A DNA stretch of 64,000 nucleotides from Pseudomonas sp. stari2 (GTDB lineage Bacteria > Pseudomonadota > Gammaproteobacteria > Pseudomonadales > Pseudomonadaceae): assembly GCF_040760005.1 (NCBI RefSeq), contig NZ_CP099760.1, positions 2,289,501-2,353,500 of the forward strand. Direction: 5' to 3'. A program made the position numbers and the translations under genes. Below are positions 7,042 through 54,075 of this stretch, piece by piece. The first letter of the stretch is position 1, and every line of letters starts with the position of its first letter. The notes beneath the pieces were generated by a model. That model did no database searches, was not told the origin of the DNA, and saw only the letters and a list, made by a program, of their open reading frames with translations.

Positions 7042-8172
7042 TTACCAGCCCCGGCCCGAATTCACCCAGAAGTTCACCGAGAGCGAGGTCGACACCGACT
7101 CCACCTGATGGAACCAGCCTTCGGGCAGGAACAACAGGTCGCCGGCCTCCAGCGTCACCCGCAGAAAGGTCACGTCGCGGGCCTTGGGGAAGCGTTCGTA
7201 GTCCGGCGCATCCGGGTTGAAATCGCAGCCGTCCAGGCCACCCTCGGGTACGGTGGACCAAGTGCCCAACGCTTCACGATGATGAGGCGCGGCGAGGGTG
7301 AACTTCTTTTGGCCCCAGACCTGGGCGAACAGGTTATCGGTGTCGTCGCGGTGCAACGGGGTCAGCGTGCCTTTGGGGCCGATCCAGATGCGCGGCGGGA
7401 TGAACAAAGAAGCGTCGAAGTAGGGCGGGTATTGAATCTGCTGCATCAACGCCGCCGGCAGAATGTTGTTGCCCATGTAGGCCGGTGGCTCTCCGTCCGC
7501 GCCTTTGACCGCCGGGCTGTCCAGCGAGGCGATGAAATCGGCCATCGAGGTGGAGCGGAAATCCCGTTCGGTCGAGAACGTCTTCTTCACGTAATCGCCG
7601 TGGCGGGTGATGCCTTGCAGTTCGGCGAAGTGCACCAGTGATTCTTCGCGGCTGAGCTTGAACAGCGGCCAGTCGTGCAAGGCATTGCTGATCACCACCG
7701 GAATACCGTTGGGCAGGTAGCGGCTCTCGAATTCGATCAGCGACAACTCGCTGCGCGGTCTGCGCTCGACGACGGTTTGCGCTGGCAGGCTGGCGGTGAG
7801 TTTTTCGCTGAAGCGCGGTGGCGTCGGATAGCGCTTGTTCATGTCGACCTTTTCTACCGGCGCTGCACCCCGGCGAGCGTGGTCGATGATTTGCGGCAGC
7901 ATTGTCGCCAGGCCCATGTTGCCGCTGATCTTCAGGCGACCGCTGGCAAATAGTTCCTCGACGTTGGCGATACCGGCCATGATTGCGAGAAAGTCCTGCT
8001 CGGCGACTTCGATGGTCACGTCGGGGCTGGCATGGCGACCGGCCTCGGTGCGGCTGCTCGCGCTGACCTCGGACCAGAACGCCTGTGAACCCAACACGAA
8101 TTGGAAAACGCCTTCGATACCGACCGCGCCGGCATTGGCGAACAGCTTGCCCAGGATGGTCTGCAGGTCCAC
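7042..8172 (-). CDS. JmjC/cupin-8-like protein with SCP2-like N-terminal domain, PvdS-box controlled
   Basis: A 376-residue protein with a GTG start at 8172 (GAGGA six bases upstream). Residues about 1-105 resemble an SCP2/sterol-carrier fold (DVTIEVAEQDFLAIMAG; LKISGNMGLATMLPQI). Residues about 110-376 form a JmjC/cupin-8 domain with metal-ligand motif H274-R-D276 and distal H355 (EGWFHQVESV). It is therefore probably an Fe(II)/2-oxoglutarate hydroxylase or a relative. A perfect PvdS-type box lies 37 nt upstream, and it diverges from the pyoverdine thioesterase gene, so it should be made under iron starvation with the siderophore. I know of no assigned role. A hydroxylation or tailoring role is inferred; the fused TauD-like domain of NRPS2 already explains hydroxy-Asp. 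It ends a few bases from the convergent MFS gene. Confidence 0.8.
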   Translation of the reverse strand: MDLQTILGKLFANAGAVGIEGVFQFVLGSQAFWSEVSASSRTEAGRHASPDVTIEVAEQDFLAIMAGIANVEELFASGRLKISGNMGLATMLPQIIDHARRGAAPVEKVDMNKRYPTPPRFSEKLTASLPAQTVVERRPRSELSLIEFESRYLPNGIPVVISNALHDWPLFKLSREESLVHFAELQGITRHGDYVKKTFSTERDFRSTSMADFIASLDSPAVKGADGEPPAYMGNNILPAALMQQIQYPPYFDASLFIPPRIWIGPKGTLTPLHRDDTDNLFAQVWGQKKFTLAAPHHREALGTWSTVPEGGLDGCDFNPDAPDYERFPKARDVTFLRVTLEAGDLLFLPEGWFHQVESVSTSLSVNFWVNSGRGW

Positions 8173-8208
8173 GGTGAATCCTCGTTGTTGTTTTGGTCTG
8201 AACGGTTA

Positions 8209-8232
8209 ACGAGCATTTGTATCGGAAATTTA
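8209..8232 (-). promoter_or_regulatory. PvdS-type promoter (TAAAT-N16-CGT) for the JmjC/cupin-like gene
   Basis: On the - strand TAAAT (8232-8228) is followed by exactly 16 nt and CGT (8211-8209), matching the iron-starvation box recognised by sigma factor PvdS. The start codon at 8172 is 37 nt downstream. Confidence 0.75.
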
Positions 8233-8244
8233 CAAACTGCCGAC

Positions 8245-8268
8245 TAATTTGCCCGGGCAGCAATCCGT
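8245..8268 (+). promoter_or_regulatory. Imperfect PvdS-type promoter for the thioesterase gene
   Basis: TAATT, 16 nt, CGT: four of five bases match the -35 element and the spacing is perfect. It lies 32 nt upstream of the chosen GTG start of the thioesterase gene and back-to-back with the box for the divergent gene. Confidence 0.55.
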
Positions 8269-8299: not shown

Positions 8300-9037
8300 G
8301 TGTTGACCAAGTTGACCCTGCTGTGCCTGCCGTATTCCGGCGCCAGTGCCATGGTCTACAGCCGCTGGCGGCCGAAGCTGCCGCAGTGGCTGCAATTGCA
8401 ACCGGTGGAATTGCCGGGGCGCGGCGCCCGGTTCGGCGAACCGTTGCACACCGACATGCGTGCACTGGCGATGCAATTGGCCCGGGAATTGCGCCCGACA
8501 CTCAAGGCCCCTTACGCACTGTTCGGCCATAGTCTGGGCGCCTTGCTGGCCTGCGAAATCGCTCACGCCTTGCGCGCACTGGGTTGCCCGGAACCGGTGG
8601 CGCTGTTTGCCTCTGGCACCGCGGCGCCGACGTTGCGCGCCGACTACGACCGCGGTTTTGCCGAGCCCAAGACGGACGCCGAGCTGATCGATCAACTGCG
8701 CACGCTCAACGGCACCAGTGAGGAAGTGCTGGCTAATAAAGAGTTGATGAGCCTGACGCTGCCGATCCTGCGCGCCGACTTCCTGCTCTGCGGCAAATTC
8801 CAGCCGTTGCAGCGGCCGCCTCTCAACTGCCCGGTGCATGTGCTCGGCGGCAAGGCCGACAAGGCGACCACCGAGCAGTTGATCGGCTGGAGCAAGGAAA
8901 CCCGTGGCAGTTTCTCGGTGGACATGCTGGCCGGCGGGCACTTCTTTATTCATGAACACGAAGCCAAGGTGCTGCGGGTAATCAAGGATCAGCTCGACGT
9001 GCATCATCGTCGGCACGGCTTGATGGCCGCCGTTTAA
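8300..9037 (+). CDS. pvdG: Type II thioesterase of the pyoverdine pathway
   Basis: About 245 residues, starting (V/M)LTKLTLLCLPYSGASAMVY. It is an alpha/beta hydrolase of the type II thioesterase family, with the nucleophile motif GHSLGA and a late His in GGHFFIHEH. These proofreading enzymes clear wrongly loaded or acetylated carrier domains of peptide synthetases. GAGG at 8291-8294 sits just before a GTG at 8300 (a TTG follows at 8303). The frame is open to an ATG at 8249, but that ATG lies inside the promoter box. It is directly upstream of NRPS1 with a terminator between. The symbol follows function; an orthologue of PA2411 is an alternative. Confidence 0.8.
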   Translation: MLTKLTLLCLPYSGASAMVYSRWRPKLPQWLQLQPVELPGRGARFGEPLHTDMRALAMQLARELRPTLKAPYALFGHSLGALLACEIAHALRALGCPEPVALFASGTAAPTLRADYDRGFAEPKTDAELIDQLRTLNGTSEEVLANKELMSLTLPILRADFLLCGKFQPLQRPPLNCPVHVLGGKADKATTEQLIGWSKETRGSFSVDMLAGGHFFIHEHEAKVLRVIKDQLDVHHRRHGLMAAV

Positions 9038-38100: not shown

Positions 38101-39701
38101 GCGAGCGGGCGGAGCTGGAGCACTTGATCGGCTTCTTCGTCAACGTGCTGCCGCTGCGTTCGCGGTTTGCGAGTGAGGCCTCGTTCCGCGGCTTCCTGAC
38201 GCAGACCCAGGACACGCTGTTGCAAGCGCTGGAGCACCAGGACCTGCCGTTCGACATGATCGTCGATGCGTCGGGCGTGCCGCGTCACAAGGGCATGAAC
38301 CCACTGGTGCAGGTGCTGTTCGTGATGAACAACCTGCCGGGACGCACCCAGGCCATGGGCGGTTTGAACGTCGAAGCGCTGCCGTCGCTGGAGACCCATT
38401 CTAAATTCGACATGGCATTGTTCGTTGACGAAGAAGAAGGGCAATTGCTGGGTAATTGGCAATTCGCCACAAGCTTGTTCGGACATGAGCGCATTCAGTA
38501 CCTGGTCAAGGCCTGGATAGCCCTGTTGGAACAGATCGTCGCTGATCAGGACATTCAATTGGGAGCTATCAGCATGCCAGTCGACAATTTAGCAGCGGCC
38601 ACCCGGCCGACTGCCCCCGGACCCAAGGCCGACAAACTGGGCAAATTCCTCAAGCGCGGCGCCGCCCCGGTGGCCAAGGTACGCCCGGCGCCGGTGCGTG
38701 AAACGTTGATGGCGGCGCCACAACCGTTCCCGCTGCTGGTGGAACCGAACGAGCCGCAGCTGGACCTGATCGAGTGGATCAAGAACAACCGGCCGCTGAT
38801 CGAGTCGAAGCTCGCCACCCACGCCGGCATTCTGTTCCGCGGTTTCGAACTCGACGGCATTCAGGGTTTTGAAGCTTTCGCCGAAGCGATCCAGCCCGGT
38901 CTGTACGGCCAATACGGCGATCTGCCGAAGAAGGAGGGCGGCAAGAACACTTACCGCTCCACGCCGTACCCGGAACGCAAGATGATTCTGTTCCACAACG
39001 AGAGCTCCCATCAGGACCGCTGGCCGCGCAAGCAGATGTTCTATTGCGAAGTGGCGGCACCGATTGGCGGCGCGACACCGGTGGTGGATTGCCGCTTGAT
39101 GTACGAAAAACTGCCGGCGGATCTGCGCGACAAGTTCGAGGAAAAAGGCCTGCTGTATGTGCGCACCTTCACCGACAAACTGGACGTGTCGTGGCAGCAC
39201 TTCTTCAAGACCGAAGATCGCGCCGAAGTCGAGGCTCGTTGCCGGGCTGGCGGTATCGAATGGCGCTGGCTGGACAATGACGAACTGCAAACCCGCACCC
39301 CGGCCCCGGCGATCATTCGCCACCCGGTGACCGGTGCGAAATCGTTCTTCAATCAGGTGCAACTGCACCACATCTACTGGCTGGAGCCGGATGTGCGTGA
39401 AGATCTGTTGTCGATGTTCGGTCTGGAGCGCATGCCGCGCCATGTTTACTACGGGGATGGCACGCCGATCGAAGACGAGGTGATGCGGCGTATCGGCGAG
39501 CTCTACGAAGCGTGCGCGGTGCGGTTCGACTGGCAGAAGGGCGACGCCATTCTGCTCGACAACATGCTGGTTGCGCATGCCCGCGATCCGTTCGAAGGCC
39601 CACGCAAGATTGTCGTGGCCATGGGTGACATGTTCGACCACAGCGACTTGCAAGGCGCCCGTGGCGAGCCGGTCCGCGCAACCGAAGGAACAGAGGCATG
39701 A
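26196..39701 (+). CDS. pvdJ: Pyoverdine peptide synthetase NRPS2: C-A-T, C-A-T-E, C-A-T, C and TauD-like Asp beta-hydroxylase
   Basis: About 4501 residues. Order: C1 49-489, A1 502-1012, T1 1060, C2 1115-1549, A2 1562-2070, T2 2118, E 2162-2599, C3 2629-3066, A3 3079-3579, T3 3630, C4 3692-4122, TauD-like domain 4176-4479. A1 and A2 both carry DVWHVSLID (Ser) and are almost identical to A4 of NRPS1. A3 reads DSEDVGAVT, acidic, so a basic residue (Arg or Lys) is inferred. The C-terminal domain has Fe ligands H4267-x-E4269 and H4461 followed by GPRKIVVAM for 2-oxoglutarate. Fused hydroxylases of this kind (IbetaH-Asp) make L-threo-beta-hydroxy-Asp on a carrier-bound residue, here on NRPS3. The ATG at 26196 shares one base with the NRPS1 stop, with GGAGGA upstream; a TTG at 26193 is the alternative. 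It overlaps NRPS3 by ATGA. Confidence 0.93.
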   Translation: MDRNVALKIARRFICLPLEKRTLYLEKMLQEGVSPANLPIPQTREEFTAIPLSFAQDRQWFIWQMDPHSAAYNIPTALQLRGALDVPALERAFNAVIARHDSLRTTFGQDDEGAVQVIHAQLPLTISVDALEVAADPAQREQQVQAYINERLHLPFDLQTGPLMRASLLRMADDDHVLAVTVHHIAADGWSMRVMVEELVQLYSGYAQGRDVSLAELPIQYADYAIWQRHWMEAGERARQLAYWQEQLGTDHSVLQLPTDFPRPSVQSFRGQRLDVTLDHQLATGLKTLAQREGMTVFMVLLASFQALLHRYSGQNEISVGVPNANRNRVETERLIGFFVNTQVLKARIDPQASFRSLLQQVKQSAMGAQAHQELPFEQLVEALQPERSLSHSPLFQVMFNHQNLATGESQQGARLPGLQIDPLSMDSQTAQFDLSLDTFETPQGLGAQLTFATDLFSAATIERMAAHWQNLLAAVVADASCPLAELVLLDAAERELIVEGWNATATEYPLSRSVHSLIEDQVRATPDALALVFGEQRLTYAQLNARANQLAAVLIEHGVGPEVLVGISVERSLEMVVGLLAILKAGGAYLPLDPEYPQDRLAYMFEDSGIALLLTQSHLLAQLPVPAGLRSLVLDQDGDWLEGRSEANPELNIDPENLAYVIYTSGSTGKPKGAGNRHSALVNRLCWMQQAYQLTAEDSVLQKTPFSFDVSVWEFFWPLMTGSSLVVAAPGAHRDPAQLIQVITEQRITTLHFVPSMLQAFLQDPAVAECTSLTRIVCSGEALQVDAQQQVFAKLPNAGLFNLYGPTEAAIDVTHWTCRDEGRDSVPIGQPIANLSTYILDNSLAPLPVGVIGELYLGGEGLARGYHRRPALTAERFVTSPFGDGQRLYRTGDLARYRADGVIEYAGRMDHQVKIRGLRIELGEIEARLAEHDDVRETVVIAQDGSLLVAYVVPDDEALLSADDATRSAKNLELKAHLGQSLPEFMVPQYWVWLEKMPVSPNGKLERKALPKFDASTLQNTFVAPQTELQKHVAVIWQDVLKLERVGLTDNFFELGGHSLLVTQVISRIRRTLDIQVPLRTLFEHSSLEAFVRVLDADQQTTQTPIPQVSREQPLALSYAQERQWFLWQMDPQSAAYNIPTALRLCGELDRAALEQSFQALIQRHESLRTAFVDTDGRVQQVIRPSGQVALHEQTLANATDEQIQAFVEQQTQQAFDLLAGELLRVALLRISDTDHVLVLTLHHIVSDGWSMQVMIEDLIACYAAFSQGRAAELPALAVQYADYAVWQREWMDNGERERQLTYWKTQLGSEQPLLEMPADHPRPAVQSFRGARLNVTIEPALSDALKALARREGVTVFMLLLASFQALLHRYSGQSDIRVGVPIANRNRLEIERLIGFFVNTQVLRAEFDPALDFARLLQQVKHTAIAAQMHQDLPFEQLVDALQPERNLSHSPLFQAMFNHRTEAESDLVAQLPGLNLQSLSWEHRTAQFDLALDTGDSPEGLDASFTYATDLFEASSIQRLAGHWLNLLKAVVADAKRPLAELVLLDAAERELIVEGWNATATEYPLSRSVHSLIEDQVRATPDALALVFGEQRLTYAQLNARANQLAAVLIEHGVGPEVLVGISVERSLEMVVGLLAILKAGGAYLPLDPEYPQDRLAYMFEDSGIALLLTQSHLLAQLPVPAGLRSLVLDQDGDWLEGRSEANPELNIDPENLAYVIYTSGSTGKPKGAGNRHSALVNRLCWMQQAYQLTAEDSVLQKTPFSFDVSVWEFFWPLMTGSSLVVAAPGAHRDPAQLIQVITEQRITTLHFVPSMLQAFLQDPAVAECTSLTRIVCSGEALQVDAQQQVFAKLPNAGLFNLYGPTEAAIDVTHWTCRDEGRDSVPIGQPIANLSTYILDNSLAPLPVGVIGELYLGGEGLARGYHRRPALTAERFVTSPFGDGQRLYRTGDLARYRADGVIEYAGRMDHQVKIRGLRIELGEIEARLAEHDDVRETVVIAQDGSLLVGYVVPNDESLLEADEDRRQAFQRRLKEHLSQNLPEYMIPQHWLLLAKMPVSPNGKLERKALPKADLSVSQKAYSAPTSEIEQALAAIWQNVLGLEQVGIHDNFFELGGDSIISIQVVSRARQAGIHFSPKDLFLHQNVQSLAVVAKVGVAGPSIDQGPVVGDSPLLPFQQLFFDSAMAEPHHWNQSVLLKPRETLDAAHVEQALQALLVQHDALRLAFSQRDGQWSATHRVPGTEPLLWQHTVADDAALEQLGEQAQRSLDLTNGPLLRALLATLADGSQRLLLVIHHLAVDGVSWRILLEDLQQAYQQLQAGQALKLPAKTSAAKTWVQRLQTYAASPALQAELSFWQAQLQGAKVELPLDHADGALQNRYAASVETRLDKEQTRQLLQQAPAAYRTQVNDLLLTALARVISRWTASESTLIQLEGHGREDLFDELDLSRTVGWFTSLFPVRLTPTVDLAGSIKAIKEQLREIPAKGIGFGALRYLGDDAARQTLQALPMPRITFNYLGQFDAGFAEDGGALFSPANEPAGAEQSPLATLGNWLTLNGQVYGGELSVGWTFSSQMFDIATIQTLADAYAQELKALLEHCCQSDSHGVTPSDFPLAHLTQQQLDSLALAPQQIEDIYPLSPMQQGMLFHTLYEQQAGDYINQMCVDVQGLDIERFRAAWQDALDAHDVLRSSFVWDGEFQRPVQVIHKHLTVPFSVLDWRERADLPQAIAALALAERQQGFELGAAPLLRLRVVRTAADACRLIYTSHHILMDGWSNSQLLGEVLQRYSGQPPASGAGRYRDYIQWLSRQDAHVSEAFWNTQLADLQEPTRLARAFVAVQPVKGRGERFHVLDEVRTRQLNEFARGHKVTLNTLVQSAWLLLLQRFTGLDTVSFGATVSGRPAQLAGVEQQIGLFINTLPVIASPRAEQTLSAWLQQVQAQNLALREQEHTPLFEIQRWAGQGGEALFDNILVFENYPVSKALQQGAPQDLRFGEVANHEQTNYPLTLAVSLDDQLSLHLSFDREQFDGRSVEQLANQLDHLLLQMVQAQSSTCLGELALAAGPMLAAIDAPASEHCVHQWFERQVAQTPDAIALMFEDRQLTYAELNAAANRVAHGLLQHNVGCDVLVGIAVDRSMDMIISLLAVLKAGGAYVPLDPGYPADRLLAMIEDSGLRLMLSQQHLLQRLPSVAGVRTLTVDGDAWPLLDSNPTPVVHGQSLAYVMFTSGSTGRPKGVGISRATLARHTRVSEAYKGLSASDRVLQFATFNFDSFVEQVYPALICGAAVVLRGNEVWDSETLYQQIIDRDISIADLTTAYWNVVVQDFADHGPRDYGRLRQMVVGGEAMPPQGIAAYQRAGLEQVQLINAYGPTEATVTSTVLDCVDYVQGGQPLPVALPIGHGLAGRTIHILDSAGQPVPQGVVGELLIGGELLARGYFQRPELTADRFLPDPFSTVGGRLYRTGDLARVNADGLIEYVGRLDHQVKVRGFRIELGEIETCLLHQDGVRQALVLAQPGAGGQQLVAYVVPHDESLASNADATWLQALRDGLKNRLPDYMQPSHVLLLTQLPIGPSGKLDRKALPLPDSQVSSEDFVAPQGQLEQQIAQVWQDVLERGQIGRNEHFFEAGGHSLLATQAVSRLRKVTGLTLSLRDLFGAPVLKDLAVVMQANVGAELAAFDSRQVELKAHGTKSSAPLSLVQRRLWIAEQLSGGTSAYGMPMALRLRGDLSVQRLLASFAEVVRRHEVLRTAYVQDDEGDPIAVIVDEVELDFPLVDLSGLSRSDQEEQVAQAVLDNANTPIDMEQAPLLRGRILHLSASEHVLLYSMHHIISDGWSMGVLINELVEIYDRASAGEPHALPALAVQYSDFALWQQALEQQGVLGQQATFWKEQLAGYNGQLGLPLDNPRGATPSYAGDAVQFALGAQLSRDVRALASRAGVTLYSTLLASFQVLLHRVSEGTDVLVGADVAGRERAELEHLIGFFVNVLPLRSRFASEASFRGFLTQTQDTLLQALEHQDLPFDMIVDASGVPRHKGMNPLVQVLFVMNNLPGRTQAMGGLNVEALPSLETHSKFDMALFVDEEEGQLLGNWQFATSLFGHERIQYLVKAWIALLEQIVADQDIQLGAISMPVDNLAAATRPTAPGPKADKLGKFLKRGAAPVAKVRPAPVRETLMAAPQPFPLLVEPNEPQLDLIEWIKNNRPLIESKLATHAGILFRGFELDGIQGFEAFAEAIQPGLYGQYGDLPKKEGGKNTYRSTPYPERKMILFHNESSHQDRWPRKQMFYCEVAAPIGGATPVVDCRLMYEKLPADLRDKFEEKGLLYVRTFTDKLDVSWQHFFKTEDRAEVEARCRAGGIEWRWLDNDELQTRTPAPAIIRHPVTGAKSFFNQVQLHHIYWLEPDVREDLLSMFGLERMPRHVYYGDGTPIEDEVMRRIGELYEACAVRFDWQKGDAILLDNMLVAHARDPFEGPRKIVVAMGDMFDHSDLQGARGEPVRATEGTEA
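27699..29058 (+). repeat. Near-identical Ser adenylation domain repeat, copy 2 (NRPS2 A1)
   Basis: Matches copy 1. Against copy 3 the identity begins earlier, at about 27641 (CCCGCTGGCCGAACTGGTG), in the C-A linker. Identity ends near 29058, where the protein changes to DDEALLSADD. Confidence 0.85.
30876..32239 (+). repeat. Near-identical Ser adenylation domain repeat, copy 3 (NRPS2 A2)
   Basis: Third copy; the shared linker with copy 2 extends upstream to about 30818. Identity with copy 1 continues slightly further (GYVVPN), so the copies form a mosaic. Confidence 0.85.
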
Positions 39702-45900: not shown

Positions 45901-48900
45901 TCAGCGCACTCGACTGTTGCTCAGGAACGTATCGATCAGGGGGGCAAGCAATTCATCCTGAAAGATCATGCTGCGGTGTTCCAGCGGTGACAGCTGCGAG
46001 CAGTTCAGTTCGCCCGTTTGGCTGTAGCGCTGGATCAGCGCCTGGCTGAAGACCAGTTCTTCTGCGGTTTTTTCCGGTACCGCCCACCAGCAACTCGGTT
46101 TGACCCGAAGTGGCTTGTAGGTGAAGGTCTCGAAGGCTTCCACCAGACGCTCGTGCACCGAGAACGCCTGGGCGTTCATGACTTCACTCTTGATGTTCTG
46201 CACGGTGGCCAGCAAGTCACCTTGACCCGGTTCGACCTGACCGGCTGCCCAGTCATAGAAGTCTTTGACGCTGCCGTGCGGCGTCGTTTGCAGGTAGGCG
46301 GTGGTGCGCAGTGCCAGGGTCGGGAACAACAGGTTGAAGTAGTGCACGGCGTCGAGCACTTCTTCCGAGGTGATGCCGAGCGCTTCGTCGTCCGGTCGCT
46401 GGAAGCGTGACAGGTCGGCGGGGAAGGCCGAAGCCGGCACGGTGCCGTCGACCAGCCCGAGGAACGCCACTTCATGACCCTGAGACTCCAGCGTCGCAGC
46501 CACGTCCATGGCCAGCGGGCCACCCAGCGACCAGCCCATCAGGTGATAAGGCCCCTGCGGTTGAGTGTTGACGATTTCACGGCTGTAGTCGGCGATCATC
46601 TCCGACCAGGTTTGCGCGTCGTTGTGTTGTTGCGAGAAGCCGCGATGCATCACGCCGTAAACTTTCGCCCGATTGTTCAAGCGTTTGGCCAGCGGCTGAT
46701 AGCAGAATACGATGCCACCGCTGGGGTGCAGGCAGAACAGCGCCGGTGCATCGGCCGGTGCGTTGTTGAGTTCGATCACGCATTGCGCGGTTGCGAAATG
46801 CTGGCGGGCGACGAAAGCGGACAGTTCGCCGATGGTCGGGTTAGCCAGCAGCTCTTGCAAACGTACTTCGATGTCGAGCTGCGCCTTCAGTTGAGCGATC
46901 AACTGGATCGCGAGAATCGAATGGCCGCCTAACTCGAAGAAGTTGTCGGTGATCCCCACGCGTTCGATGTTCAACGACTGCTGCCAAAGACTGGCCAGCG
47001 CTTCTTCCAGCGGATTGCCCGGCGCCACGTAGCTGCGTTGCCAGAGGCTGGCGTCCGGTTCCGGCAGTGCCTTGCGGTCAAGTTTGCCGTTGGCGTTCAA
47101 CGGGAAGCGCTCAAGGAACAACAGGTGCGCAGGCACCATGTAATCGGGCAATTGCGCACGCAGTGCGGTGATCAGGGTGTCGCGCAGTTCCGTCGAATCC
47201 GCAGCGATGACGTAGGCCACCAATTGCAGGCCGCTCGGACCTTCGTGGGTCAGCACCGCGCAATCCTGCACCTGCGGCTGATCGAGCAGACGCGCTTCGA
47301 TCTCGCCCAGTTCGATGCGGAAACCACGGATTTTTACTTGATGGTCGATTCGCCCGACGTATTCGATGCTGCCGTCGTTGCAGTACTTCGCGAGGTCGCC
47401 GGTACGGTACAGACGCCCACCCTGAACACTGTCGAACGGGTCGGGGATGAAACGTGTGGCGGTCAGGTCGGTGCGGTTCAGGTAGCCTCGGGCGAGCCCG
47501 GCGCGACCGATGTACAGCTCGCCGGTGCAGCCTTTGGCGACCGGGTTGAGGCCTTCATCCAGCAGATACCAGGACAGGTCGGCAATCGGCACGCCGATGG
47601 GGCTGGCGGATTCGGTCTCCAGGTCAGCCAGTGACAGCGGCCGGTAGGTTACGTGAACGGTGGTTTCGGTGATGCCGTACATGTTGATCAGTTGCGGGGC
47701 CTGATCGCCGAAGCGCTCGAACCAGGGGCGCAGGCTTTTCACCTCGATCGCCTCTCCGCCGAAAATCACGTAGCGCAGTTGCTGGGTCAACGGCTGGTCA
47801 GGTTCGCAGGCTACTTTCATCAGTTGTTTGAACGCCGACGGCGTCTGGTTCAGCACGCTGACGTTCTCTTCGCAGAGCAGCGTGTAGACGTCTTGCGGAG
47901 AGCGGCTGACTGCGTGCGGCACGATGACCAGGCGACCTCCGTACAGCAGCGCACCAAAGATCTCCCAGACCGAGAAGTCGAAGGCATAAGAGTGGAACAG
48001 GCTCCAGACATCGTTCTGATTGAAGCCGAACCAACCGCTGGTGGCTTCGAACAGGCGCACCACATTGTGATGCGGCAGCAGGGCGCCCTTGGGTTTTCCG
48101 GTCGAGCCGGAGGTGTAGATCACGTACGCCAGATTGTCCGGCCCCACGGCCACTTCGGGGTTGTGCTCGGCGACGTCGGTCAGGCTCGTGGCATCGTCGA
48201 GCAGCACGCAGCGTACGTGGGCGGGCAATGGCAATTGCTCGCGCAGATGGCTCTGGGTCAGGACCCAATCGATGCGGCTGTCCTCGATCATGTAGGCCAG
48301 ACGATCAGCCGGGTAGGCCGGGTCCAGTGGCACATAGGCGCCGCCGGCCTTGAGAACCGCCAGCAGGCCGATCAGCATCTGCGGCGAGCGCTCGGCGGCG
48401 ATGCCCACCAGCACATCCGGGCCGACACCGTTGGCGATCAAGCGGTGGGCCAGACGGTTGGCCTGGCGGTTGAGCTCGGCGTAACTGACCTGTTGTTCGC
48501 CGAAGGTCAGGGCGATGGCGGTGCCATTGCGCGCGACCTGGGCTTCGATCAACTGGTGCAGGCACAGCGACGGGGCGATTCGAGCCTGTTGCGGGTTCCA
48601 TTCGGCGAGGGTCTGCCGCTGCTCTTCGGCATCAAGCAGTTGCAATTCGTCCAGGCGCCAATCGGGACGGGCGATCAGTTGCAGCAGCAGTTGCTGCCAG
48701 TGCCGGGCCATGCGCTCGATGGTGGCGGGGGTGTAGAGGTCGCGGCTGTATTCGAACGTGGCTTGCAGGTTCTGCGGGCTGAAGTCGACGTCCAGCGACA
48801 GATCAAACTTGGCCTGGCTTTCGCCGGCATCCAGAAACTGCAGGTTCAGCCCGCCCCATTCCACGGCCGCCGGCTCGCCGCCGTCCGTGCGCCAGTTGAA

Positions 48901-50052
48901 CAACACCTGGAACAGCGGATTGAGCGAGGTGGCACTGCCGCGTTGCAGTTGATCGAACAACAACTCCAGCGGGTAATCGGCGTGTTCCAGCGTCGCCAGC
49001 GAATGCGCGCGCAAGGCTTGCAGGAAGTCCCGCACCGATTGCTGGCCGTCGAGCGTCGCCTTGTACACCTGACTGCTGACAAAAAAGCCCACCAGTTCCT
49101 GGCTGTCACTGCGGTTGCGGCTGGCATTGGGCACGCCGACGGTGAATTCGCGCTGCTGACTGTAACGGCCGAGCAGCAGTTGCCACGCGCCCATCGCCAG
49201 CACGAACGGGGTCAGGCCCTCGTTTTGGCAGAAACGGTTGAGGGCTTGCAGCGCTGTGGGCGCAAGGCTCAGGGAATGACGCCAGGCCAAATGTTGCTGG
49301 CCTTCGACGCGGGCATAATCGACCGGCAGCTCAAGCGCTGGCAGTTCGCGGCCCAGATACTGACGCCAGTAATGGTCGGCGCGCTTGCAGGCCACGCTGT
49401 CGATGTACTCGCCGCGTTGCCACTGCGCGTAGTCGCTGTACTGGATCGGCAACTGGCTCAGCACCGGGCTGAGGCCGGCACTGGCTTGCGCATAGGCGCG
49501 CGCCAGATCCTGCATGAGGATTGCGTTGGACCAGGCGTCGGACACGATGTGGTGCATGTTCAGCAGCAACACGTGTTCACGCTCGGCTGTCTTGATCAGG
49601 GTGGTGCGGATCAGCGGTGCGCGGCTCAGGTCGAACGGTTGCAGGGCCTGGGTTTGCAGGCGTTGTTCGAGGTGCAGGCTACGGGTGTCCTCATCCAGCA
49701 AGGAAAGGTCCTGGCGCTTTAGGTTCAGGCGTGCCTGGCGCTCGACCACCTGGGTCGGCACGCCGTCGATTTCGCGAAAGGCAGTGCGCAGGATGTCGTG
49801 GCGGTCGATCACCGCGTTGAGCGCGGTTTCCAGCGCCTGCGGATCGAGGTCGCCGTCCAGGCGCAAGGCGCGTGGCAAGTTGTAGGCGGCATTCGCCGGC
49901 GCCTGTTGCTGCACCAGCCACAGACGTTGCTGGGCGTACGACAGCGGCGCCCGATCCAGGCGCGCGCGGCGGTTGTCTACCGGGTCTGGCTCGACGGCGT
50001 CGGCATCGGCCAACAGCAGTGCCAGCAGGTCATCATCAAGAAGTTCGTTCAT
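45901..50052 (-). CDS. pvdD: Terminal pyoverdine peptide synthetase NRPS4: C-A (Thr)-T-TE
   Basis: A 1383-residue last module. C is at about 35-455 with HHIVSDAW, where Ala replaces the usual Gly of HHxxxDG. A is at about 475-975 (core YTSGSTGKPKG) with code DFWNIGMVH, the classic Thr code. T is near 1035 (LGGHSILAI). A thioesterase occupies about 1095-1383 with GWSLGG, releasing the finished peptide. It adds L-Thr to the hydroxy-Asp of NRPS3 and ends the assembly line. It is separated from the + strand synthetases by fpvA and lies 34 bp downstream of pvdE, as last gene of the pvdM-N-O-E-D operon. Its N-terminus (MNELLDDDLLALLLADADAV) may be a docking helix. Confidence 0.93.
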   Translation of the reverse strand: MNELLDDDLLALLLADADAVEPDPVDNRRARLDRAPLSYAQQRLWLVQQQAPANAAYNLPRALRLDGDLDPQALETALNAVIDRHDILRTAFREIDGVPTQVVERQARLNLKRQDLSLLDEDTRSLHLEQRLQTQALQPFDLSRAPLIRTTLIKTAEREHVLLLNMHHIVSDAWSNAILMQDLARAYAQASAGLSPVLSQLPIQYSDYAQWQRGEYIDSVACKRADHYWRQYLGRELPALELPVDYARVEGQQHLAWRHSLSLAPTALQALNRFCQNEGLTPFVLAMGAWQLLLGRYSQQREFTVGVPNASRNRSDSQELVGFFVSSQVYKATLDGQQSVRDFLQALRAHSLATLEHADYPLELLFDQLQRGSATSLNPLFQVLFNWRTDGGEPAAVEWGGLNLQFLDAGESQAKFDLSLDVDFSPQNLQATFEYSRDLYTPATIERMARHWQQLLLQLIARPDWRLDELQLLDAEEQRQTLAEWNPQQARIAPSLCLHQLIEAQVARNGTAIALTFGEQQVSYAELNRQANRLAHRLIANGVGPDVLVGIAAERSPQMLIGLLAVLKAGGAYVPLDPAYPADRLAYMIEDSRIDWVLTQSHLREQLPLPAHVRCVLLDDATSLTDVAEHNPEVAVGPDNLAYVIYTSGSTGKPKGALLPHHNVVRLFEATSGWFGFNQNDVWSLFHSYAFDFSVWEIFGALLYGGRLVIVPHAVSRSPQDVYTLLCEENVSVLNQTPSAFKQLMKVACEPDQPLTQQLRYVIFGGEAIEVKSLRPWFERFGDQAPQLINMYGITETTVHVTYRPLSLADLETESASPIGVPIADLSWYLLDEGLNPVAKGCTGELYIGRAGLARGYLNRTDLTATRFIPDPFDSVQGGRLYRTGDLAKYCNDGSIEYVGRIDHQVKIRGFRIELGEIEARLLDQPQVQDCAVLTHEGPSGLQLVAYVIAADSTELRDTLITALRAQLPDYMVPAHLLFLERFPLNANGKLDRKALPEPDASLWQRSYVAPGNPLEEALASLWQQSLNIERVGITDNFFELGGHSILAIQLIAQLKAQLDIEVRLQELLANPTIGELSAFVARQHFATAQCVIELNNAPADAPALFCLHPSGGIVFCYQPLAKRLNNRAKVYGVMHRGFSQQHNDAQTWSEMIADYSREIVNTQPQGPYHLMGWSLGGPLAMDVAATLESQGHEVAFLGLVDGTVPASAFPADLSRFQRPDDEALGITSEEVLDAVHYFNLLFPTLALRTTAYLQTTPHGSVKDFYDWAAGQVEPGQGDLLATVQNIKSEVMNAQAFSVHERLVEAFETFTYKPLRVKPSCWWAVPEKTAEELVFSQALIQRYSQTGELNCSQLSPLEHRSMIFQDELLAPLIDTFLSNSRVR

Positions 50053-52779: not shown

Positions 52780-54075
52780 TCAGATCTGGCTGACGAGCAC
52801 GGTCATGAAGCGGTCGATTTCTTGTTCGTTGTTCAGCAGGCCCGGTGCGCTGCGAATGACCGGCCCGACGTCGCGGTCGACGGCGTCGGCGATCACCTTG
52901 TTCTGCATCAGGTAGGCGGCGATCTTGTCGCAGTCCTTGCCCTTGACCCGGAAGAAGGTGAAACCGGCGGAGAGCTCGGGGCTCAGCGGCGTGACCAGTT
53001 CGATCTGCGGGTGTTCCTGCAGGCGCTTTTTCAGGTAGCTGTTCAAGGCGTGAATGCGCGCCTGGACGTCGGCCTTACCCAGTTGCAGGTGCAATTTGAA
53101 CGCTTCGTTCAGGGCCCAGCGGTGCTCGAAGGCGTGATAGCCGCCGGGGGTCATGGTGGTGGAAAACGCGGTGGCTTCGGAGAAGGTCGGAATGATCGGC
53201 GTGACGTACCTGACCTGATCGAAACGGCTGCAGACGATGCCGGTGCCACGCGGGCCGAACATCCATTTGTGGGTGCCGGCAATAAAGAAGTCGCAGTTCA
53301 TCGCCGGAAAACTCAAATCATCGACGCCGAAGCCGTGCACGCCGTCCACCAGATAGATGATCCGGTTGTCGTCCGAACGGCCCTTGTTGTGCTTGTCGAC
53401 CAGTGCGCCGATTTCAGCGATCGGCAGTTTCACGCCGCTGCCCGAATGCACCCAGCACATGCCCAACACACGGGTTTCGGGGCGGATGTTGCTGTCGATG
53501 GCCGCGAGGATTTCGGTCTTGGTTGCCGTGTGCGGATCCTTGAACAGACGGATCTTGCGCAGCTTGGTGCCTTCACGCTGTGTGCGCAGCGCGAGGATGG
53601 TGTGGGTGGCGTAGTGTTCGTGTTGAGTGGTGAGGATTTCCTGATCGGCACGCACATGGGCGCCGCCGTAAATCATCGCCAGGCCCTCGGTGGTGCTGCC
53701 GGTCAGGGCGATCTGTCTGGCGTCGGCTTGCAGATAGCGTCCGGCCCAGACGCGCACCTCTTCTTCACGCTGCTCGATCACGCCCAGGTCCCAGTCCATC
53801 GCCAGCCCTGGATTTTTGTCGAGGGCAGCGCGGTGCAGGGCGATGGCGTCACGCACCGGTTTGGGGTGTGAGGTGATCAGGAAGTTGGAGAAGTGCAGGC
53901 AGTCCGGGTCTTGCTCGAACAGCGTGCGCAACTGCGCCCATTTGTCCTGTGCCGGCGCTGCTGGCACAACGTTCGCGGTGTTGGCGGGGCTGGCGCCCTG
54001 GACGATACCCGAGGCCAGTGGCAGGCCGGCGGCGAGAATCCCCGCCTGCTTGAGAAACGTACGACGATCACTCAT
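52780..54075 (-). CDS. pvdN: Periplasmic PLP-dependent enzyme modifying the pyoverdine glutamate side chain
   Basis: 431 residues. The N-terminus MSDRRTFLKQAGILAAGLPL is a twin-arginine signal, so the enzyme is exported folded with its cofactor. The body is a fold-type I PLP enzyme of the cysteine desulfurase/isopenicillin epimerase group, with LVDGVHGFG (cofactor Asp) and the Schiff-base Lys at about residue 270 in AGTHKWMFGPRG. PvdN in other pseudomonads converts the N-terminal Glu of the precursor to succinamide. The start overlaps the pvdM stop (ATGA), so synthesis is coupled. Confidence 0.93.
   Translation of the reverse strand: MSDRRTFLKQAGILAAGLPLASGIVQGASPANTANVVPAAPAQDKWAQLRTLFEQDPDCLHFSNFLITSHPKPVRDAIALHRAALDKNPGLAMDWDLGVIEQREEEVRVWAGRYLQADARQIALTGSTTEGLAMIYGGAHVRADQEILTTQHEHYATHTILALRTQREGTKLRKIRLFKDPHTATKTEILAAIDSNIRPETRVLGMCWVHSGSGVKLPIAEIGALVDKHNKGRSDDNRIIYLVDGVHGFGVDDLSFPAMNCDFFIAGTHKWMFGPRGTGIVCSRFDQVRYVTPIIPTFSEATAFSTTMTPGGYHAFEHRWALNEAFKLHLQLGKADVQARIHALNSYLKKRLQEHPQIELVTPLSPELSAGFTFFRVKGKDCDKIAAYLMQNKVIADAVDRDVGPVIRSAPGLLNNEQEIDRFMTVLVSQI

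Follow-up and report, generated by a model that had tools for sequence, protein, structure and literature searches.

Introduction

Pyoverdine assembly starts from a ferribactin that begins acyl-L-Glu-D-Tyr-L-Dab (Dab, diaminobutyric acid) and carries a myristoyl-type chain on Glu1 (PMC6206403; citations refer to the available parts of each paper). Two periplasmic pyridoxal phosphate (PLP) enzymes are described for the side chain at this glutamate: PvdN, whose conversion of Glu to succinamide is in print, and PtaA, which yields ketoglutarate (PMC6206403). In SBW25 the side chains are succinic or ketoglutaric (PMC2235872). The malamide side chain, on the other hand, is made by "an unknown enzyme" according to Ringel and Bruser in 2018, who report that it is not made by PAO1 or A506 and leave the position of its hydroxyl open (PMC6206403), and a 2022 review still calls the biosynthesis of the malamide/malic side chain unknown (PMC9569983). 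A 2023 review treats pyoverdine as an intermediary in azotobactin synthesis (PMC10669500), and ring formation in azotobactin is not explained in the open-licence literature that we searched. Here we analyse a gene for a fused SCP2-JmjC protein in the pyoverdine locus of Pseudomonas sp. stari2, within a stretch of 64,000 nucleotides (NZ_CP099760.1, positions 2,289,501 to 2,353,500 of the forward strand; hereafter the window). We consider it probable that this gene encodes a PvdS-controlled Fe(II)/2-oxoglutarate (2OG) hydroxylase that tailors the N-terminal Glu of pyoverdine and is the source of the malamide/malic side chain.

The closest folds to the JmjC part of this protein are those of small JmjC 2OG hydroxylases of the Cupin_8 type, JMJD5, JMJD7 and FIH, of which JMJD5 is an arginyl C3 hydroxylase (PMC10246557). 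The metal and 2OG residues are shared with JMJD5, whereas the fused SCP2 domain, the bacterial siderophore locus and the PvdS-type box set the protein apart, and the model has low confidence at a conserved stretch, about residues 186-206, where the alignment with JMJD5 is poor. The TauD-type siderophore beta-hydroxylases (SyrP, IBH_Asp, TBH_Asp and IBH_His; PMC12971057, PMC4019867) are alike in siderophore context, and one of them is fused to the second side-chain nonribosomal peptide synthetase (NRPS) of the window; the SCP2-JmjC protein belongs to a different family, and its proposed substrate is Glu1 rather than a peptide residue. PvdN and PtaA would act on the same glutamate in our model, but as PLP enzymes in the periplasm, whereas the SCP2-JmjC protein is a putative cytosolic oxygenase proposed to act earlier. 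Finally, the SCP2 factors UbiJ and UbiT of ubiquinone synthesis are said to hold the lipid tail while hydroxylases modify the head group; in that system the two functions sit on separate proteins, whereas here both are in one chain. We know of no other JmjC enzyme that acts on a lipidated siderophore precursor. Searches of the open-licence literature on pyoverdine with cupin, JmjC and SCP2 returned nothing that joins pyoverdine to this gene, and the words cupin and JmjC have 0 occurrences in the available part of PMC12971057.

Results

The protein and its predicted activity

Both domains of the protein (Table 1) exceed the curated Pfam cut-offs, with 126.8 bits against 27.4 for Cupin_8 (PF13621) and 43.5 bits against 21.3 for SCP2 (PF02036). 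The SCP2 part also matches SCP2 chains in the PDB by phmmer, and NCBIfam UbiT gives a weak match below its cut-off (E 0.0022); the Pfam scan found no TauD domain (PF02668) in the protein. A preliminary description of the window had read a metal motif, H274-R-D276 followed by H355, and the alignment agrees: H274, R275, D276 and H355 are unchanged across 41 aligned sequences, in which T271, N280 and K289, aligned with 2OG-binding residues of JMJD5, are also invariant. The best fold matches of the model are JMJD5, JMJD7 and FIH, and it has the double-stranded beta-helix fold of these enzymes; SCP2 chains are not among the matches listed in the fold comparisons, which barely tested the parts outside residues 126-376. 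From its family and its metal and 2OG residues, the protein is predicted to be an Fe(II)/2OG hydroxylase. Its SCP2 domain may bind an acyl chain and hold the tail, an idea that comes from the domain family and from the role of UbiJ and UbiT.

No second Cupin_8 protein was found in the genome. Since neither a signal peptide nor a twin-arginine motif is visible by eye at its N-terminus (MDLQTILGKLFANAGAVGIEGVFQF), we take it to be cytoplasmic. That an iron-dependent enzyme should be induced by iron starvation had been called odd; it is nothing special here, as TauD-type hydroxylases are of the same cofactor class as JmjC enzymes and one of them is fused to an NRPS of the same locus.

A conserved PvdS box at the promoter

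The PvdS site consensus is TAAAT-N16-CGT (PMC4019867). The perfect box and the GTG start reported in the preliminary description are both present, at a measured distance of 36 nt and not 37 nt. Exact boxes (spacing 15-17) number 7 in the window against 0.97 expected. With one mismatch allowed there is no excess in the window (17 observed, 14.9 expected), and genome-wide the bare pattern is not significant, with 37 matches against 45 for a reversed control; the claim for the box is therefore carried by its position and conservation. For a set of named genomes, 80 loci were kept of 94 relatives, and 73 of these have an exact box 20-100 nt upstream, always with a spacer of 16 bases and in 43 cases at 36-37 nt from the start. 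In a second, overlapping set the start was located for 53 orthologues, and 46 of these have the exact box. Among the seven named loci lacking the exact form, three have TAATT-N16-CGT (L091, L103 and L152) and in three the gene is co-directional behind a pvd gene (pvdN in L163, pvdP in L164 and L169); L147 has neither exact box, TAATT form nor co-directional pvd gene ahead. The TAATT variant, seen in those three loci and at the divergent thioesterase gene, may thus be functional. Together, the conserved box and its promoter distance suggest that the gene is under PvdS control.

Distribution and context of the orthologues

In a sample of 298 Pseudomonas genomes, 84 have a match at E 0.001 or better, and 65 were counted as orthologue carriers at an identity of at least 64%, two broken copies (G034 and G105) included. 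Left out were 19 genomes: G143 and G153, which hold remnants, G209, with a fragment of 52% identity, and those whose cupin matches are weaker, at 38% identity or below. PvdE, counted at E 1e-180 or better (34 weaker matches of 247 were not counted), is present in 213 of the 298 genomes. All 65 gene-bearing genomes are among these 213 (P 1.1e-11, ignoring phylogeny), so that in this sample the gene occurs only with PvdE, and none of 28 genomes from other families of the order has a match at E 1e-60. The broken copies and remnants in G034, G105, G143 and G153 suggest that the step is dispensable and is being lost in some lineages.

Orthologue identities span 64-92%, with 66% for Azotobacter vinelandii CA, and we take the named carriers to fall in the P. 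fluorescens, P. putida and P. syringae groups. Membership of the pyoverdine regulon, as first proposed from the window, is borne out by the conserved box and by a pvd gene inside the fetched flank in 74 of the 80 named loci; side-chain NRPS or thioesterase (TE) genes are nearby in 63. The position of the gene varies: it lies beside TE or NRPS genes, after pvdN, between pvdM and pvdP (L061) or after pvdP (L169, L170). In L163 it follows pvdN directly, in L155 it is 1.1 kb downstream of pvdN with an opposite-strand open reading frame between, and in A. vinelandii it comes directly after pvdP with its own PvdS box. It is also retained while the neighbouring NRPSs vary, with best-hit identities to NRPS1 of 41 to 89% in a subset of the loci. 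This movement within pvd loci next to diverging NRPSs points to a substrate common to these siderophores.

A pvdN homologue is present in 61 of the 65 gene-bearing genomes. The search for pvdN found none in P. carbonaria and P. lopnurensis, both of which have the gene. The same was seen in three P. viridiflava/P. syringae strains (L143, L144 and L148) and in L159, all with side-chain NRPS genes.

Three further observations concern individual loci. Those of P. shirazensis, P. taiwanensis and P. guariconensis (L165, L166 and L168) have an exact PvdS box and fetched flanks without pvd genes. A record named Pantoea sp. Ap-967 (L160, NZ_VWXK01000016.1) has the gene beside Pseudomonas-type pvd NRPS genes and is probably a mislabelled Pseudomonas. 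At L065:9461-10399 there is a cupin relative, 36-38% identical, whose neighbours are PvdRT-like exporter genes and an NRPS-like gene; it is possibly a related tailoring enzyme for a different lipopeptide.

Strains with described pyoverdines

P. fulva NBRC 16637 (L161) carries the gene with its box, and the gene is identical to that in L054 of genome G142. The strain has a pvdN homologue and a single Cupin_8 protein. No siderophore-type TauD protein was found at E 1e-40 in NBRC 16637/G142 (G142 is not among the 148 matching genomes); two more distant TauD proteins of G142 are encoded on a different contig from the SCP2-JmjC gene. For P. fulva NBRC 16639, tandem mass spectrometry (MS/MS) gave the peptide Asp-Ser-Ser-AcOHOrn-Lys-Lys-cOHOrn (OHOrn, hydroxyornithine; Ac, acetyl; c, cyclic), with malic-amide (isoform A, 1220.56), succinamide/succinic, cyclised and azotobactin-like isoforms (PMC12195549). 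Masses of 1187.53, 1204.56, 1220.55 and others were reported for NBRC 16637, in a pattern that resembles that of NBRC 16639 (PMC12195549). For one strain with the gene, then, the malamide mass is among the reported pyoverdine masses. As given in PMC12195549, the NBRC 16639 peptide has no C-hydroxylated residue besides Ser; because its peptide carbons are plain, the malamide hydroxyl is the one C-hydroxyl in this structure that needs an enzyme.

Adenylation (A) domain motifs were read with a custom script that often misreads position 4 and misses some modules, and residues were named from A-domain code tables and Table 5 of PMC12195549. In another gene-bearing genome, G091, the A domains read Asp-Ser-Ser / OHOrn-Lys-Lys-OHOrn, with residue names assigned partly by comparison with PMC12195549. 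P. putida NBRC 14671 (L151) also carries the gene, and a pair of peaks 16.01 apart is reported for it (1358.58/1374.59; PMC12195549). P. putida GB-1 makes a malamide pyoverdine and the same peptide with an azotobactin chromophore (PMC4019867). A link to this strain runs only through P. hunanensis xwS6 (L156; L052 of G289 has the identical gene), whose NRPS locus has the order pvdO, TonB receptor, four NRPS genes and a SyrP-like TauD gene. The xwS6 A domains read Asp-Lys / Asp-Ser / X / (one missed)-Lys-like-OHOrn-like, and its NRPS gene order and readable motifs match GB-1. Between the malamide form and the azotobactin form, the mass step is 89.05 and 89.04 in P. fulva and GB-1, equal to C3H7NO2. 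This corresponds to replacement of the malamide acyl by the ring carbonyl, a result that fits any route and proves none.

The locus in the window

As the preliminary description had it, the SCP2-JmjC gene diverges from the thioesterase gene. The thioesterase gene heads the pyoverdine locus and has its own one-mismatch box (Table 1). Other genes of the locus are the TonB receptor gene (fpvA), pvdE, pvdO, pvdN, pvdM, pvdP, opmQ, pvdT and pvdR, names that were assigned by domain content and order; for the gene named pvdP there was no Pfam match. Motifs of the A domains in the window read roughly Gly/Ala?-OHOrn?-Lys?-Ser-Ser-Ser-Arg?-Asp, with the TauD domain just ahead of the Asp module.

Table 1 Features of the SCP2-JmjC gene and the surrounding pyoverdine locus, in window coordinates
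Feature	Position	Strand	Basis or remark
SCP2-JmjC (Cupin_8) gene	7042..8172	-	376 aa, GTG start
Predicted SCP2 domain (sterol carrier/lipid-binding type), residues 19-96	7885..8118	-	PF02036 E 4.2e-11
Predicted JmjC/Cupin_8 oxygenase domain, residues 147-369	7066..7734	-	PF13621 E 1.8e-36
H274-R275-D276, metal-binding by homology	7345..7353	-	aligned to JMJD5 HxD, invariant in 41 sequences
K289, putative 2OG-carboxylate lysine	7306..7308	-	invariant; aligned with JMJD5 lysine
H355, predicted third metal ligand	7108..7110	-	invariant; aligned with JMJD5 His
PvdS/iron-starvation box TAAAT-N16-CGT, TAAATTTCCGATACAAATGCTCGT	8209..8232	-	exact match, ends 36 nt before GTG
One-mismatch box TAATT-N16-CGT of the divergent thioesterase gene	8245..8268	+	pattern search
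Divergent PvdG-like thioesterase gene	8300..9037	+	PF00975 E 1.1e-45; name by family and context
Three side-chain NRPS genes	9232-42910	+	domain content
TauD domain at the end of the second side-chain NRPS, known-type Asp hydroxylase	38760..39620	+	PF02668 E 7e-47
Separate condensation-adenylation-thiolation-thioesterase (C-A-T-TE) gene	45901-50052	-	domain content
pvdN homologue (aminotransferase class V)	52780..54075	-	PF00266

Discussion

The preliminary description held that none of the known pyoverdine steps needs this enzyme. This is not supported, as the malamide/malic side chain needs a hydroxylation for which an enzyme is lacking (PMC6206403, PMC9569983). In the model that we infer, PvdL and the side-chain NRPSs make ferribactin with a myristoyl-type chain on Glu1, a step that is established (PMC6206403). 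In the cytosol, the SCP2 domain would bind the acyl chain and the JmjC domain would hydroxylate a CH2 of Glu1. Once the peptide has been exported and deacylated, hydroxy-Glu would serve PvdN as substrate and yield malamide in place of succinamide; malic acid would then form by hydrolysis. Hydroxylation is placed first, on acylated Glu1, because the protein looks cytosolic while PvdN is periplasmic. More speculatively, this hydroxyl may also lead towards the azotobactin ring, provided that it sits beside the chromophore amide; the azotobactin chromophore accompanies malamide in P. putida GB-1 and P. fulva, and in A. vinelandii, the azotobactin producer, where pvdN was not found, the outcome would be azotobactin. 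The full version of this model, in which a JmjC hydroxylase that grips a lipid tail acts on acylated Glu1 before export and forms the branch-point between succinamide pyoverdine, malamide pyoverdine and azotobactin, is one that we offer tentatively.

Several observations weigh against a role in malamide formation. The substrate favoured in PMC6206403 for malamide formation is succinamide, because hydroxy-Glu has never been seen; succinamide is periplasmic and the SCP2-JmjC protein has no export signal by eye, so one of the two views must be wrong. In P. fulva the elimination covered the Cupin_8 and TauD oxygenase families only, and MS/MS was performed on NBRC 16639 whereas the genome analysed is that of NBRC 16637, which has an azotobactin-type mass of 1115.47, 16 below the 1131.50 of NBRC 16639, a difference for which the paper offers no explanation (PMC12195549). 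The paired peaks of NBRC 14671 were given no assignment, and Table 4 of PMC12195549 has at least one +16 pair in 11 of 13 strains (none in NBRC 16636 and 100650). With 11 of the 13 strains showing one, a +16 pair alone is weak evidence. The peptide of NBRC 100650 is presumably that of KT2440, and no KT2440-type NRPS locus was recognised among nine gene-less genomes read by A-domain motifs.

The genomic data also hold points on this side. A pvd gene above threshold is missing from the flank in 6 of the 80 named loci, three of them on short flanks (L130, L162 and L167), of which L130 holds the end of a TE gene. Co-occurrence with pvdN is not above that of the other PvdE-bearing genomes (at most 129 of 148, Fisher P 0.23; an approximate comparison, since at E 1e-40 a few weak homologues, and genomes lacking PvdE, are counted as well), and by itself therefore lends the model no support. 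The search for pvdN homologues came back empty for 4 of the 65 gene-bearing genomes and for 7 of 17 named ones, hand-picked from the 80 so as to take in odd cases; A. vinelandii and strains of the P. syringae group are among those without one. In such genomes PvdN cannot be the source of malamide, and another outcome is needed. TauD-type hydroxylases are commoner with the gene (48/65 against 76/148 of the other PvdE-bearing genomes, P 0.0025); we read this excess as shared phylogeny, though the result favours a link with clusters of the hydroxyaspartate type. Lastly, structure prediction, suggested in the preliminary description as a check on both pockets, gave no trustworthy SCP2-JmjC geometry, and its confidence was moderate to low both for the SCP2 part and for how the domains pack.

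The alternative that survives best overlaps with the malamide model, which it could extend. The protein could be an azotobactin-chromophore enzyme that oxidises the glutamyl CH2 adjacent to the chromophore amide, leading to side-chain loss and imidazolone closure with malamide as a by-product. In this direction point the A. vinelandii orthologue, with its own box after pvdP in a genome where pvdN was not found, the similar lack of pvdN in P. carbonaria and P. lopnurensis, the joint occurrence of azotobactin chromophore and malamide in GB-1 (PMC4019867) and NBRC 16639 (PMC12195549) with the common C3H7NO2 step, and strain ABC1, for which others read the absence of PvdN and PtaA as pointing to azotobactin (PMC8085936). 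Set against this are the few chemically described cases and P. chlororaphis ATCC 9446, a strain that may or may not carry the gene and for which azotobactin is also reported. We know of no mechanism for the C-C cleavage, and we regard this alternative as possible but not as the favoured one.

Could the enzyme instead act on the variable peptide and hydroxylate Asp, His or another amino acid there, as the TauD-type siderophore hydroxylases do? Its frequent place near side-chain NRPS or TE genes, the amino-acid side chains that its fold relatives hydroxylate and the TauD excess would fit such a role. The P. fulva peptide, plain apart from Ser, argues against it, as does the retention of the gene beside NRPSs that vary, and 17 of the 65 gene-bearing genomes are without a window-like TauD while 48 have one, so that the enzyme neither replaces Asp hydroxylation nor is strictly tied to it. 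A peptide residue is therefore an unlikely substrate. Asp beta-hydroxylation in particular was considered and rejected on these TauD counts and on the plain Asp of the P. fulva peptide.

A role in protein modification, also raised at the outset, would make the enzyme a regulatory hydroxylase of a ribosomal or other target that merely shares PvdS control. JMJD5, JMJD7 and FIH do act on proteins, but the gene is confined to PvdE-bearing genomes in our sample, has no match at E 1e-60 in the 28 genomes of other families and keeps to pvd loci at changing positions; nothing that we found points to a protein target, and we consider such a role very improbable. Least probable of all is modification of the fatty-acid tail of acyl-ferribactin, later removed by PvdQ. 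The SCP2-type domain would suit it, but the closest folds belong to amino-acid and not fatty-acid hydroxylases, and conserved control and 64-92% identity are hard to explain if the target is a tail that is discarded.

If hydroxylation of Glu1 by the SCP2-JmjC protein is correct, it would fill the malamide/malic enzyme gap named in the 2018 and 2022 reviews, and perhaps that of the azotobactin ring. It would provide an example of a JmjC enzyme that works on a lipid-anchored peptide, and the lipid-bound substrate of the model would give a reason for the SCP2 fusion. Pyoverdine side-chain chemistry would become readable from genomes: strains with the gene and pvdN would be expected to make malamide, and those with the gene and without pvdN azotobactin-like or other hydroxylated forms.

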